A stretch of DNA of 64,000 nucleotides from Streptococcus mitis (GTDB taxonomy: Bacteria; Bacillota; Bacilli; Lactobacillales; Streptococcaceae), in the NCBI RefSeq assembly GCF_023109105.1, contig NZ_JALDTZ010000006.1:37632-101631 (forward strand). The letters run 5' to 3'. Position 1 is the stretch's first letter. Every line of letters starts with the position of its first letter. The notes under the pieces are model-generated. The model was given only the letters and a program-made list of their open reading frames with translations, searched no databases and was not told where the DNA came from. Positions 5,332-20,836 of this stretch are shown piece by piece. A program made the translations under genes and the position numbers.

Positions 5332-5483
5332 ATACTCAATGAAAATTAAAGAGCAAACTAGGAAGCTAGCCGCAGGTTGCTCAAAGCACTGCTTTGAGGT
5401 TGTAGATGAAACTGACGAAGTCAGTAACCATATATACGGCAAGGCGAAGCTGACGTAGTTTGAATTTGATTTTCTAAGAGTAT
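5332..5483 (+). repeat. BOX element, boxA-boxB-boxC type
   Basis: Starts ATACTCAATGAAAATTAAAG and contains one boxB (CTCAAAGCACTGCTTTGAGG then GACGAAGTCAG). Ends with a variant boxC (TTTTCTAAGAGTAT), 19 bp after the Na/Pi transporter stop. Confidence 0.93.
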
Positions 5484-17708: not shown

Positions 17709-18512
17709 TTATCCCAAAACCAATTCATCACTAACTAGACTTTGCCCACTATTTTTCTGGAAGAGATGCATGAGATCTTCAACCGTCAAATGCTTTTTCT
17801 CCTCTCCTTTGACATCCACCACTATCTTGCCTTGATAGAGCATAATGAGACGATTTCCGTACTCAATCGCATGGTTCATATCATGGGTAATCATCAAAGT
17901 CGTCAACTGGTGCTCTTCCACAATCTTTTGTGTCAAGTCCATCACCATTTGACTGGTTTTTGGATCAAGTGCCGCAGTATGTTCATCCAAAAGCAAGAGT
18001 TTAGGTTTCACTAGAGCTGCCATTACTAGGGTCAAGGCCTGTCTTTGTCCTCCTGAGAGGTATTGGGTATCCACTTTCAAGCGGTTTTCAAGACCAATAT
18101 TCAACTCTTTCAAGGCCTCTTGGAACCTGATTCTATCCTTCTCCTTCACGCCCCAACCAAGCCCTCTCTTCTGCCCGCGTCTCAAGGCAATAGCCATATT
18201 CTCCTTAATCGTCAAACGAGAAGCTGTTCCCATCTTAGGATCTTGAAAAACACGGGAGATATCCTTAGCCCTCTTTCTTACACTCAGATTTTTAATGGAT
18301 TTCCCTTCCAATAAAAGGTCCCCTTCGTCCACCGATAGATTGCCAGCCAAGATATTCATCAAAGTGGATTTACCTGCTCCATTTCCACCAATCACAGAGA
18401 TAAAATCTCCCTCATCAACCTCTAAATCTAATCCTTTGAGGACATGGTTCTCATTGACCGTCCCTGCTTCAAAAGTCTTGTGAATATTTTCAAGTGTTAA
18501 CAAACTTACCAT
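17709..18512 (-). CDS. ABC transporter ATP-binding protein of TrpX-type amino-acid system
   Basis: A 267-residue ATPase energising the adjacent permease. Walker A GGNGAGKST, signature LSGGQRQAL, Walker B LLLLDEHTAALD and the switch His in MITHDMNHA are intact; the Asp-Glu-His variant after Walker B is as found in this subfamily. I choose ATG 18512, because AAGGAG lies 8 nt upstream; an earlier ATG at 18533 has no site and overlaps the permease. Third gene of the substrate-binding/permease/ATPase operon, immediately followed by the glucosidase stump. Confidence 0.92.
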   Translation of the reverse strand: MVSLLTLENIHKTFEAGTVNENHVLKGLDLEVDEGDFISVIGGNGAGKSTLMNILAGNLSVDEGDLLLEGKSIKNLSVRKRAKDISRVFQDPKMGTASRLTIKENMAIALRRGQKRGLGWGVKEKDRIRFQEALKELNIGLENRLKVDTQYLSGGQRQALTLVMAALVKPKLLLLDEHTAALDPKTSQMVMDLTQKIVEEHQLTTLMITHDMNHAIEYGNRLIMLYQGKIVVDVKGEEKKHLTVEDLMHLFQKNSGQSLVSDELVLG

Positions 18513-18525
18513 AACTTTCTCCTTC

Positions 18526-19419
18526 CTATTCATTTCTCAATTTCAGACCACGAATCTTTAATCTCTTTTGCAATTCTGGTGCAAATAAAACCAAGGCGAG
18601 CAAGATTGCATTAAAGAGACGAACCAGATTTTGATCTAGATTTGGAATTTCATAGATATTTAAAATAATCAAACGGTAAACAATAGCACCGATTCCGATG
18701 GATAATAAGCGGCCTCCAATGGTCAAGTCGTGAATCAAGACTTCCGCAATAATCACCGCACTCAAACCAACAACAATAGTTCCTGTCCCAGAAGTCACAT
18801 CTGAAAATCCATCATTTTGAGCGAATAAAGAACCACATAGGGCAATCAAACCGTTTGAAATCATGTAACCAACAATCTTCATGGTGTCTACATTGACCCC
18901 GTTAGCCTCACTCATCGGAATATTGTCCCCAGTCGAACGCAAGACCAAACCAATCTCCGTTTTCATCAAAAGGGTCAAGACCAAACAAACAAGTAAGAGG
19001 CAGGCTAAACTGAGTGAGAAAACAGCTTCTTCATTTGTCATCCCTAAGCTCGCCAACTGTTTAAAGACCGTTGCAGAATCTCCTAAGGAAAGATTGGGTA
19101 CGCTACCCATGATTTTAATATTGATCGAATAGAGCCCTGTCAAGGTCACAATCCCTGTCAAGAGAGCTGGAATTTTCATCTTAGTATGGAGCATTCCTGA
19201 TACAAGACCTGCTACCATACCTGCCAGCAAAGCAAGTAAGGTTGCAATCCAAGGATTTGTCCCTGCCTGTATCTGTGATACGACGACAGCTGCGCCCAGA
19301 GGAAAGGCTCCTTCAGCAGTCATATCCGCAATATCCAAAATACGGAAAGTCAAGTAGACTCCAATGGCCATAATCGACCACAACAAACCTTCTGATAAAC
19401 TAGATAATACAAAACTCAT
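18526..19419 (-). CDS. ABC transporter permease of TrpX-type amino-acid system
   Basis: A 297-residue integral membrane protein of the BPD_transp_2 (LivH-like) family with about eight hydrophobic segments; GAFPLGAAVV near residue 37 and SANGVNVDTMKIVGYMISNG-like coupling loop (around 170-190) fit the family. It lies 10 bp after the substrate-binding gene. Its family in the TrpXYZ systems carries aromatic amino acids, based on comparative work and ligand-bound structures of the binding protein. Confidence 0.92.
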   Translation of the reverse strand: MSFVLSSLSEGLLWSIMAIGVYLTFRILDIADMTAEGAFPLGAAVVVSQIQAGTNPWIATLLALLAGMVAGLVSGMLHTKMKIPALLTGIVTLTGLYSINIKIMGSVPNLSLGDSATVFKQLASLGMTNEEAVFSLSLACLLLVCLVLTLLMKTEIGLVLRSTGDNIPMSEANGVNVDTMKIVGYMISNGLIALCGSLFAQNDGFSDVTSGTGTIVVGLSAVIIAEVLIHDLTIGGRLLSIGIGAIVYRLIILNIYEIPNLDQNLVRLFNAILLALVLFAPELQKRLKIRGLKLRNE

Positions 19420-19429
19420 CTTAAACCTC

Positions 19430-20407
19430 CTATTCCTTGCCCTCTAACTTACTGATATCAATTCCTAGTGCATCTGCCATTTCTTTATTGGTATGCAATT
19501 CCAATTTTTCAGGCAACTCAACTGCTATATTTTCTGGCTTCTCACCTTTTAAAACCCTAATCAACATGCGGGCTGTCTGCCGTCCTAATTCTTCATAATT
19601 GGTTCCGTAGTTATACAAGCCACCAACAGCAATCATTTCTGTCGAACCACCAAATACTGGAACCTTGTGTTTAATAGAAACCTGCTTGACTGTTTCCATG
19701 GTTGACGAAATGATATTATCTGTTGGTACAAAAACCATATCCACTTCTGCCATCAAACTCTCTGCTGCCGCCTTGACATTGTTACTGTCCAAGATTGTTT
19801 TTTCAACAACGGTAAAGCCTTTTTCTTCCAGAAGTCGCTTAGCTTCATCCTTTTGGACAACTGAGTTTGGCTCGCTCTGAGTATAGAGAATTCCAATTGT
19901 TTTAGCCTTTGGCAACACTTTCTTTATCAAATTGATTTGGGTTGAAATGGCATCTGATGACTGGTCGCTTGTCCCCGTCACATTTCCCCCAGGATGTTCT
20001 CTTGACTCAACCAACTTGGCACTGACAGGGTCTGTTACAGCTGAAAAGATAACCGGTGTCGTTTGTGTTGTATTAGCCAAGCTCTGAGCAGAAGGCGTTG
20101 CAATGGCTAGAACGACATCACTAGATTCTGCTAGCTGCTGGGAAATGGTTTTTAGATTTCTTTGTTCTCCTTGTGCATTTTGCAAATCAATCTCAATATT
20201 TTCCCCCTCAACATAGCCTTGTTTGACCAGCTCATCCACAAATCCTTCTCTAGTAGCGTCCAAAGACTGGTGGGTAATAAACTGCGAAATACCGATACGA
20301 AATACATCTTTTTTCTTATCTGCCTTCAACTGATGCAAACTAATCAGAGAAGTCAAGAGAATCCCTACAACCAAGAGAGGTGCTAGTAATTTTCGAACAA
20401 CTTTCAT
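19430..20407 (-). CDS. trpX: ABC transporter substrate-binding protein, TrpX family
   Basis: Extracytoplasmic binding protein (325 residues, ABC_sub_bind family) for an amino-acid importer. It has an uncleaved-looking N-terminal membrane anchor (residues 5-25) with no lipobox Cys, then two Rossmann-like lobes (FRIGISQFITHQSLDATREG, IGILYTQSEPNS, VFVPTDNIISS). Pneumococcal homologues are annotated as tryptophan transporters and, from memory, were crystallised with aromatic amino acids. Start ATG 20407 has AAGGAG upstream. The gene is preceded by a ~390-nt leader with a Phe/Tyr-rich leader peptide, hairpins, a terminator and a BOX element, implying attenuation control. Confidence 0.9.
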   Translation of the reverse strand: MKVVRKLLAPLLVVGILLTSLISLHQLKADKKKDVFRIGISQFITHQSLDATREGFVDELVKQGYVEGENIEIDLQNAQGEQRNLKTISQQLAESSDVVLAIATPSAQSLANTTQTTPVIFSAVTDPVSAKLVESREHPGGNVTGTSDQSSDAISTQINLIKKVLPKAKTIGILYTQSEPNSVVQKDEAKRLLEEKGFTVVEKTILDSNNVKAAAESLMAEVDMVFVPTDNIISSTMETVKQVSIKHKVPVFGGSTEMIAVGGLYNYGTNYEELGRQTARMLIRVLKGEKPENIAVELPEKLELHTNKEMADALGIDISKLEGKE

Positions 20408-20433: not shown

Positions 20434-20538
20434 ATACTCAATGAAAATCAAAGAGCAAACTAGGAAACTAGCCGCAGGCTGTACTTGAGTACGGCAAGGC
20501 GACGTTGACGTGGTTTGAATTTGATTTTCGAAGAGTAT
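20434..20538 (+). repeat. BOX element, boxA-boxC type, inside the trpX leader
   Basis: Runs from ATACTCAATGAAAATCAAAG to TTTTCGAAGAGTAT. It lies between the attenuator terminator (20544-20572) and the trpX ribosome site, on the antisense strand relative to trpX, so it is part of the 5' untranslated region of any full-length transcript. Confidence 0.94.
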
Positions 20539-20543
20539 AAAAC

Positions 20544-20572
20544 AAAAAACCGCCTAGATAATACCTAAACGG
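20544..20572 (-). terminator. Attenuator terminator in the trpX leader
   Basis: Minus strand CCGTTTAG-gtattat-CTAGGCGG, an 8-bp stem with two G-T pairs, followed directly by TTTTTT. It lies about 140 nt upstream of the trpX start and 230 nt downstream of the promoter, so it can only control the transporter operon. The 5' flank CAAGCATCC is complementary to GGATGC in the upstream hairpin, giving a possible antiterminator. Confidence 0.85.
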
Positions 20573-20608
20573 ATGCTTGAAATAATCTAACAAGTTATAA
20601 CTTTGCTA

Positions 20609-20636
20609 GTCCATTTAGATATTCATCTATATGGAC
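20609..20636 (-). ncRNA. Leader hairpin B upstream of trpX
   Basis: Minus-strand GTCCATATAGAT-GAAT-ATCTAAATGGAC forms 11 pairs with one A-A mismatch. It lies between the region 2:3 hairpin and the terminator of the trpX leader. Confidence 0.65.
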
Positions 20637-20657
20637 CACAATCAAAAATCTTAGCCA

Positions 20658-20697
20658 CATAGATACAAACAAATTGCTTGAACTGTTTGCATCCATG
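20658..20697 (-). ncRNA. Leader hairpin A (regions 2:3) upstream of trpX
   Basis: Minus-strand CATGGATGCAAACA (20697-20684) pairs along all 14 positions, two of them G-U, with TGTTTGTATCTATG (20671-20658), around a 12-nt loop. The same 5' arm can instead pair with TGTTTGTA (20715-20708), which begins right after the leader-peptide stop codon. Two mutually exclusive partners for one strand is the hallmark of an attenuator. Confidence 0.75.
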
Positions 20698-20715
20698 GTG
20701 ACATGTCTACAAACA

Positions 20716-20775
20716 CTATCTAAAGTAGCTAAAGTAAAAGTTTTGATTCATAGTTACGGCTTGTCTCTTATTCAT
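20716..20775 (-). CDS. Putative Phe/Tyr-rich leader peptide of the trpX operon
   Basis: A 19-codon frame, MNKRQAVTMNQNFYFSYFR then TAG, beginning about 26 nt after the predicted transcription start. Codons 13-18 are Phe-Tyr-Phe-Ser-Tyr-Phe, five aromatic codons in six. The stop codon touches the first strand of the alternative hairpins. The weakness is the ribosome site: only AGAAAG or AAGAAA is visible before either Met (residue 1 or 9). No Trp codon is present, which contrasts with the tryptophan label of the transporter family. Confidence 0.55.
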   Translation of the reverse strand: MNKRQAVTMNQNFYFSYFR

Positions 20776-20807
20776 TTCTTTTTCTGCTTTCTTTTTTGAT
20801 GTTTCCT

Positions 20808-20836
20808 ATCTTACCACCTTTTTCATTAGCTGTCAA
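20808..20836 (-). promoter_or_regulatory. trpX operon promoter
   Basis: Minus strand: TTGACA (20831-20836), 17-bp spacer, TAAGAT (20808-20813). It is near consensus and about 400 nt from the trpX start, defining a long leader. Two CodY-like motifs lie just upstream (best at 20858-20872, AATTTTTCGAAAATT, 13/15). Confidence 0.88.

Follow-up and report, generated by a model that had tools for sequence, protein, structure and literature searches.

Leader-peptide attenuators are known from his and pheA of Escherichia coli and Salmonella. A study in Listeria reportedly describes leader-peptide attenuation as well, so the mechanism would not be new to Firmicutes. Elements that concern us here appear in print under the labels “riboswitch,” “sRNA_2410,” and “trpB riboswitch candidate.” In Streptococcus agalactiae (GBS), leaders of 195 and 270 nt precede two paralogous ABC transporter operons, and the account of them proposes riboswitches, gives one short and one long transcript for the GBS leader, and places a gbs2033-type leader before aroFBC-tyrA of Enterococcus faecium as well (PMC4448216). 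The 195-nt sRNA_2410 of E. faecium is reported to appear as two transcripts (PMC5593968). The authors of the trpB motif, where they discuss its function, favored a riboswitch and left a classic attenuator possible (PMC11109978), and a Trp transporter of Streptococcus suis is described as being under T-box control (PMC9382623). In the open PMC literature, we found no description of a leader peptide in the aromatic element, and PMC7724050 makes no mention of 2410, a leader peptide, or attenuation.

Architecture of the leader

The window analyzed here is a 64,000-nucleotide stretch of a Streptococcus mitis genome. On its minus strand, a leader adjoins an oppF-like gene on one side and an operon for a binding protein, a permease, and an ATPase on the other. 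Its parts, in the order of transcription, and the genes that follow are these:

20836-20808, minus strand: promoter, TTGACA-17-TAAGAT with extended TG (consensus score 10/12)
20716..20775, minus strand, including the stop: leader peptide frame MNKRQAVTMNQNFYFSYFR followed by its stop, kept in relatives
20719..20739, minus strand: putative sensing codons TTT TAC TTT AGC TAC TTT AGA (F Y F S Y F R)
20717..20734, minus strand: strand 0, the codons themselves, with strand 3/3′ as partner
20702..20716, minus strand: strand 1, abutting the stop; 1:2 paired in 97.7% of cells
20715-20708, minus strand: TGTTTGTA, confirmed at this place
20684..20697, minus strand: strand 2, with strand 1 or 3 as partner; 2:3 paired in 99.2% of cells
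20697-20684, minus strand: CATGGATGCAAACA, confirmed at this place
20671-20658, minus strand: TGTTTGTATCTATG, confirmed at this place
20650..20670, minus strand: strands 3 and 3′ (GTTTGTATCTATGTGGCTAAG), with strand 2, 0, or 4 as partner
20625..20635, minus strand: strand 4, with strand 3 or 5 as partner; 3:4 paired in 86.4% and 4:5 in 89.8% of cells
20610..20620, minus strand: strand 5, with strand 4 or the terminator 5′ arm (antiterminator) as partner; 5:6 paired in 96.4% of cells
20564..20572, minus strand: strand 6, the terminator 5′ arm; 6:7 paired in 93.8% of cells
20544..20557, minus strand: strand 7, the terminator 3′ arm and T-run
20572-20550, minus strand: terminator hairpin, its T-run reaching 20544
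19430..20407, minus strand: substrate-binding protein annotated TrpX (PF04392), probably a Phe/Tyr binder (Tyr271, Ser255)
18526..19419, minus strand: ABC permease (PF02653)
17709..18533, minus strand: ABC ATPase (PF00005)

A rereading of the sequence found the promoter, frame, strands, and terminator exactly where the preliminary description of this locus had placed them; that description did not include strand 0, the ladder strands 3′, 4, and 5, or an antiterminator made of 5 and 6. The 271-nt leader folds with a z score of -6.6, and none of 200 shuffles was equally stable. An upstream -35/-10 pair scoring at least 10/12 was present in 40 of 44 relatives versus 0 of 44 random windows, while simple pattern scans alone gave no excess in the region of either promoters (13 found versus 12.0 expected) or terminators (5 versus 4.2). 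The distance from leader to gene varies among relatives. In the window, the terminator is separated from the binding-protein gene by a repeat (20504-20538 and beyond), of which the initial 35 bases recur at 1946-1980 and 5449-5483; presumably, it resembles the pneumococcal RUP element.

Distribution and downstream genes

A DNA search of 247 Streptococcus genomes returned a match at E ≤ 0.01 in 154 (about 123, by count, at E ≤ 6e-6); many of the weakest matches were short A-rich chance hits, and some weak ones were true leaders. The leader was found in 141 of the first 153 Streptococcus loci, with a TrpX-like gene in the same stretch in 138 of these, the exceptions being two short loci (L002 and L015) and one with a different gene after the leader (L112). 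By eye, the gene in L112 looks like a transposase. In many Streptococcus lineages, the operon encodes one or two additional TrpX-like binding proteins, and a gene of unknown kind, at one point supposed to lie between leader and TrpX in many streptococci, was rejected as such: these are further TrpX-like binding proteins. In one 5-kb locus (L138), a second, partial leader match precedes a second binding-protein gene downstream.

Against the entire model of Rfam family RF02863 (“Enterococcus sRNA 2410”), the window scored 59.6 bits (E = 2.3e-9), just below the gathering score of 61 bits. Matches to this family occurred in 215 of 395 Lactobacillales genomes and 52 of 80 genera, 98 of them above the cut-off, and in none of 14 control genomes; such leaders are thus common in Lactobacillales, a correction to the earlier characterization of the layout as rare in Firmicutes. 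For 110 Lactobacillales loci outside Streptococcus (30 returned by the RF02863 search and 80 chosen among the matches listed), the first gene after the leader was TrpX-like in 69, AroE in 31, DAHP synthase in 7, and AroC, PheA, and a family-3 binding protein in one each, identity being checked with Pfam for 10 of the 110.

R1, a model built in this analysis, matched 32 of 348 Bacilli genomes, 5 of them outside Lactobacillales. Three of these five, all of one genus (loci L297-L299 and L304-L306), have a leader with FYFSYF before DAHP synthase and another with the Phe-only FFFSDFR before pheA; Pfam was run on one locus of each kind. Another of the five (L295 and L296) has RYYYFGWFS, with a Trp codon, before transketolase and FYYYFGFFR before an aminotransferase.

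Aromatic codons of the leader peptide

In nearly all leaders, the peptide ends in the pattern [FY][FY][FY][SG][FY]FR, within which Phe and Tyr interchange. With no motif forced, the 56 Streptococcus leaders had Phe or Tyr at codons -7, -6, -5, -3, and -2 in 54, 52, 54, 54, and 56 cases; the corresponding counts for 88 nonredundant loci from other Lactobacillales were 77, 88, 88, 88, and 88. The aromatic frame was present in all 110 of the other-Lactobacillales loci, every one with at least four Phe/Tyr, and Trp occurred at codons -7 to -1 in none of the 56 Streptococcus leaders and none of the 110 loci. Two Streptococcus leaders (L087 and L135) have one nonaromatic residue within the aromatic run, and one (L144) is without a stop.

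Alternative helices and covariation

Two alignments were compared: A1, with 56 Streptococcus rows from 137 leaders having the stop/strand-1 motif, near-duplicates dropped (5 of 142 leaders, in which the motif is missing, were left out), and A2, an order-wide alignment of 77 of 99 references that ends before strand 6. A stack scan of all A1 column pairs, with no structure assumed, placed 2:3, 6:7, 0:3′, 1:2, and 5:6 at the top and 3:4 and 4:5 lower; the corresponding scan of A2 recovered the alternative helices among strands 0 to 5. Other short stacks, e.g., 0:5 and 0:6, were also returned by both scans because the strands resemble one another.

Three states of the ladder were scored in A1: 1:2/3:4/5:6, with 93.7% of cells paired and two-sided changes in 8 pairs; 2:3/4:5/6:7, with 94.7% and 14 pairs; and 0:3/1:2/4:5/6:7, with 95.5% and 21 pairs. 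For each, the covariation score exceeded all 500 shuffles, which keep relatedness, in both A1 and A2 and also exceeded all slid controls in A1; by the weaker measure of pair types, the state 1:2/3:4/5:6 was reached by 20 of 500 shuffles in A1. Among single helices in A1, that with strand 0 was paired in 98.5% of cells with two-sided changes in 4 pairs (order-wide, the two halves of strand 0 were paired in 98.0 and 98.9%), the antiterminator 5:6 had two-sided changes in 3 pairs, and the terminator 6:7 had them in 9 of 12. Helix 2:3 showed one-sided changes only in A1 and five pairs with two-sided changes in A2. Strand 4 was the least paired: one pair of helix 3:4 fails in 32 of 56 leaders and one of 4:5 in 29 of 56, and in these alignments helix 3:4 is the weakest supported.

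The codons themselves take part in this covariation. At A1 columns 57-147 (AU 29, UA 21, UG 6) and 63-140 (AU 32, UA 20, UG 3), the second codon position is A where the codon is for Tyr and T where it is for Phe, and the opposite base changes with it, such that the F/Y codon swap is compensated in the RNA.

The check across relatives suggested in the preliminary description supports its idea: the frame, the aromatic codons, and helices 1:2 and 2:3 are kept. A third pairing, GGATGC:GCATCC, is not. The window has this complementarity, yet no more than 4 of 56 leaders retain all six pairs, and it was rejected as a conserved part; the antiterminator is instead strand 5 with the terminator 5′ arm.

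Ribosome position and hairpin choice

The effect of a ribosome on the ladder was modeled by equilibrium folding only, with transcripts cut before the terminator 3′ arm and a mask that hid the RNA as far as 12 nt beyond the start of the A-site codon, a limit set by the ribosome footprint. For the window, the probability of 5:6 was 0.00 without a ribosome, 0.98 to 1.00 for A-site codons -8 to -3, and 0.81, 0.36, and 0.41 at -2, -1, and the stop. The means for 56 leaders were 0.22 without a ribosome, 0.50 to 0.71 at -8 to -3, and 0.33, 0.27, and 0.27 at -2, -1, and the stop; 5:6 exceeded 0.5 in 43 of the 56 at the best stalled position, in 13 without a ribosome, and in 12 at the stop. Modeled in this way, the leaders behave according to the classical three-state logic: hairpin choice in the model depends on ribosome position, and the codon strand itself favors the off state of the untranslated leader.

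We propose that, in an untranslated leader, the codons (strand 0) would pair with 3/3′ and 1:2 would form, followed by 4:5 and then the terminator 6:7, leaving the operon off. With ample charged Phe and Tyr tRNA, the ribosome would get to the stop and mask strand 1; 2:3 and 4:5 would form, and the terminator would again form (off). Under Phe/Tyr scarcity, the ribosome would stall on the aromatic codons with strand 0 masked and strand 1 free; 1:2, 3:4, and 5:6 would form, the terminator would be blocked, and the importer would be transcribed. A model with strands 1 to 3 only was rejected, as it has the wrong sign at first sight (masking of strand 1 leads to termination); the conflict disappears once strand 0, the remaining strands of the ladder, and where the ribosome sits are taken into account.

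The codons, promoter, alternative helices, and gene association are established by comparison of sequences; starvation stalling, tRNA as the signal, and Phe/Tyr as the substrate are what we infer. The leader has a short reading frame with codons for the amino acids of its pathway and a mutually exclusive antiterminator and terminator that are backed by comparison, both as in an attenuator. We regard it as a ribosome-mediated transcription attenuator sensing the charging of tRNA-Phe and tRNA-Tyr, with a probability of roughly 0.87. The attenuation reading given to this locus at the outset is in that respect borne out: the frame is conserved, the F/Y swaps are compensated, and the ribosome-masked fold switches as predicted.

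A former attenuator may have decayed in the mitis-type lineage, with the window copy now constitutively off or weakly regulated. The lack of a good ribosome site had already been named as the weak point of the locus, and it is real in the mitis-type lineage, as in a few other leaders: a Shine-Dalgarno sequence at -5 kcal/mol or better was found in 0 of 4 mitis-type representatives, the window included, and in 37 of 41 other Streptococcus (L076 being among the four without) and 82 of 82 other representatives, counts that, unlike the unforced codon counts above, use the motif-anchored set (240 of 252 leaders) and score every leader at the most favorable of its possible starts, a choice that favors strong sites, against a background of single windows. 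The mitis-type lineage has kept frame and structure despite the missing Shine-Dalgarno. The repeat between the window terminator and the gene would also fit decay. Yet the codons, the start ATG, the promoter, and the helices are all intact, and the window sequence still switches in the model from 0.00 without a ribosome to 0.98-1.00 when stalled (less sharply at the stop, 0.41), which makes decay unlikely.

Under nascent-peptide arrest, FxFSYFR would detain the ribosome at the stop when free aromatic amino acid is available, masking strand 1. Such masking does favor the off state in the mask model, and hardly any variation occurs at Ser (or Gly), Arg, and the stop, the peptide Ser and Arg being as conserved as the aromatics; that conservation can be explained by the place of their codons within helix 0:3′. 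Free interchange of F and Y argues against arrest, as do the loss of Arg by a one-base insertion in two Streptococcus leaders (L126 and L133) and the absence of a stop directly after Arg (or its equivalent) in 9 of the 110 other-Lactobacillales loci, whose peptides continue past it (read-through endings FRRCL, FRSCL, FRYCL, FRYGL, and YRASL). We consider arrest very unlikely.

Transporter type and the Trp sister class

As a comparison for the binding protein, CD0873 (6HNI) is reported to hold Tyr, 3LKV to hold Phe, and 3LFT to hold Trp, and a Tyr-to-Gln change is said in the same account to let SP1069 hold Trp (PMC6816091). The window protein is nearest 6HNI (233 bits versus 203 and 203 for the other two structures) and scores below the curated cut-off of NF041285 (TrpX, tryptophan binding protein; 329.9 versus 390 bits). 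In the alignment, its Tyr271 occupies the Tyr-to-Gln selectivity position and its Ser255 that of CD0873 Glu-263. Behind Phe/Tyr leaders, the selectivity position is Tyr in 248 and Phe in 10, i.e., 258 of 258 with near-duplicates counted; it is Gln in 14 of 14 Trp-type proteins (T-box, 8/8; Trp leaders, 4/4 scored; and both unclassified), an agreement between residue and leader that is largely orthology with few independent events. The window transporter, first described as TrpX type, is probably of the Phe/Tyr rather than the Trp type, with Tyr271 where the Trp type has Gln.

At least two such binding-protein genes occur in each of 24 Streptococcus genomes searched. Two weak R1 matches lie before Trp-type paralogues, and their peptides end in AWQFWRR and TWQNWRR. 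Among 15 Trp-type paralogues examined (L336-L350), 8 have a T-box and 5 a Trp-codon leader, including the 2 with the Rfam trpB motif RF04312; in L339 and L348, neither was recognized. As judged from these sequences, the presence of a T-box or a Trp leader peptide before orthologous Trp-type transporters is a natural exchange of tRNA-charging sensors. A T-box at the window's own leader was rejected, with no RF00230 match at the gathering score or at E ≤ 1.

At E ≤ 0.001, RF04312 had matches in 159 of 295 Lactobacillales genomes, 52 of which exceeded its cut-off; one control, Lactococcus lactis, also matched, with a score under the cut-off. Some of the low-scoring matches are Phe/Tyr leaders, since two of those listed, in G359 and G378, share their place with RF02863 matches, and the window leader scored 27.5 bits against a gathering score of 59. 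Trp codons were counted in the 30 best-scoring RF04312 loci only, in the most favorable of three frames. In 27 of these, a two-Trp peptide, typically WQxWRR, stops 10-22 nt upstream of the motif, and the peptide has one Trp in the other three. Loci with a Trp-codon peptide at the trpB motif are L351-L380, L340, L341, L343, L347, L349, L300, and L301. An alignment of the Trp class shows this ladder short of one relay. The mask model, run on 21 of 25 leaders (four with a later stop were left out), gave the antiterminator in 16 leaders when the A site was at codon -6, where the first Trp usually lies, in 14 when it was at -3, where the second lies, and in 1 at the stop, the result without a ribosome being less clear (8 of 21).

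These codon differences weigh against the published proposal, made for the GBS gbs2033 element, of a riboswitch binding an aromatic amino acid or a precursor directly (PMC4448216). A long, conserved, structured leader with short and long transcripts speaks for a riboswitch; against it stands a conserved aromatic reading frame, with a Shine-Dalgarno in most relatives, in which F/Y swaps are compensated in the RNA and codon type tracks gene function, Trp codons standing before the Trp-type paralogue and, in three genomes of a single genus, the Phe-only FFFSDFR before pheA. In our judgment, the codons and the alternative pairings account for most of the conserved bases, and we consider direct ligand binding very unlikely. 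That the RNA acts in trans, its location before the operon being incidental, is suggested by the Rfam family name sRNA_2410 and by a 195-nt RNA reported from E. faecium by Northern blotting (PMC5593968) and is scarcely credible, given that 110 of 110 other-Lactobacillales loci precede a transporter or aromatic-pathway gene, that terminator and antiterminator are mutually exclusive, and that a reading frame is present.

Comparison with known systems

With the his and pheA attenuators of E. coli and Salmonella, the proposed attenuator shares a peptide rich in the sensed codons, a ladder of exclusive hairpins, and an intrinsic terminator. It differs from them in having the codons of two aromatic amino acids together and, compared with his, in one extra relay pair; unlike his and pheA, the Lactobacillales leaders precede import and biosynthesis genes alike. 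RF02863 (sRNA_2410) is homologous to the window leader; its label says sRNA, and its model starts within the codons. The gbs2033 element of S. agalactiae likewise stands before one of two paralogous ABC operons and was named a new riboswitch family, the section describing the element mentioning no leader peptide (PMC4448216); judging from its description, it would belong to the RF02863-type leader family. The trpB motif RF04312 has the same layout with a ladder one relay hairpin shorter and a peptide ending in WQxWRR and a stop, with Trp codons, and sits before the Trp-type paralogue or trpB; the gbs1262 element is probably also a trpB motif.

It is likely that the gbs2033/aromatic element, the trpB motif, and the Rfam sRNA constitute one codon-programmable attenuator family across Lactobacillales, in which a change from Phe/Tyr to Trp or to Phe-only codons (the latter before pheA) retargets the ladder and which exchanges with T-boxes before orthologous transporters. 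Such a family would put a testable mechanism in place of the “riboswitch” and “sRNA” labels, would have leader-peptide attenuators and T-boxes substituting for each other before orthologous transporters, and would bring substrate predictions to a transporter family annotated as tryptophan specific; its natural codon swaps (F/Y, W, and F only) offer ready tests of codon sensing. The T-box is also a sensor of tRNA charging and, in 8 of the 15 streptococci examined, stands at the orthologous position in front of the Trp-type paralogue; unlike the leader proposed here, it binds the tRNA directly.
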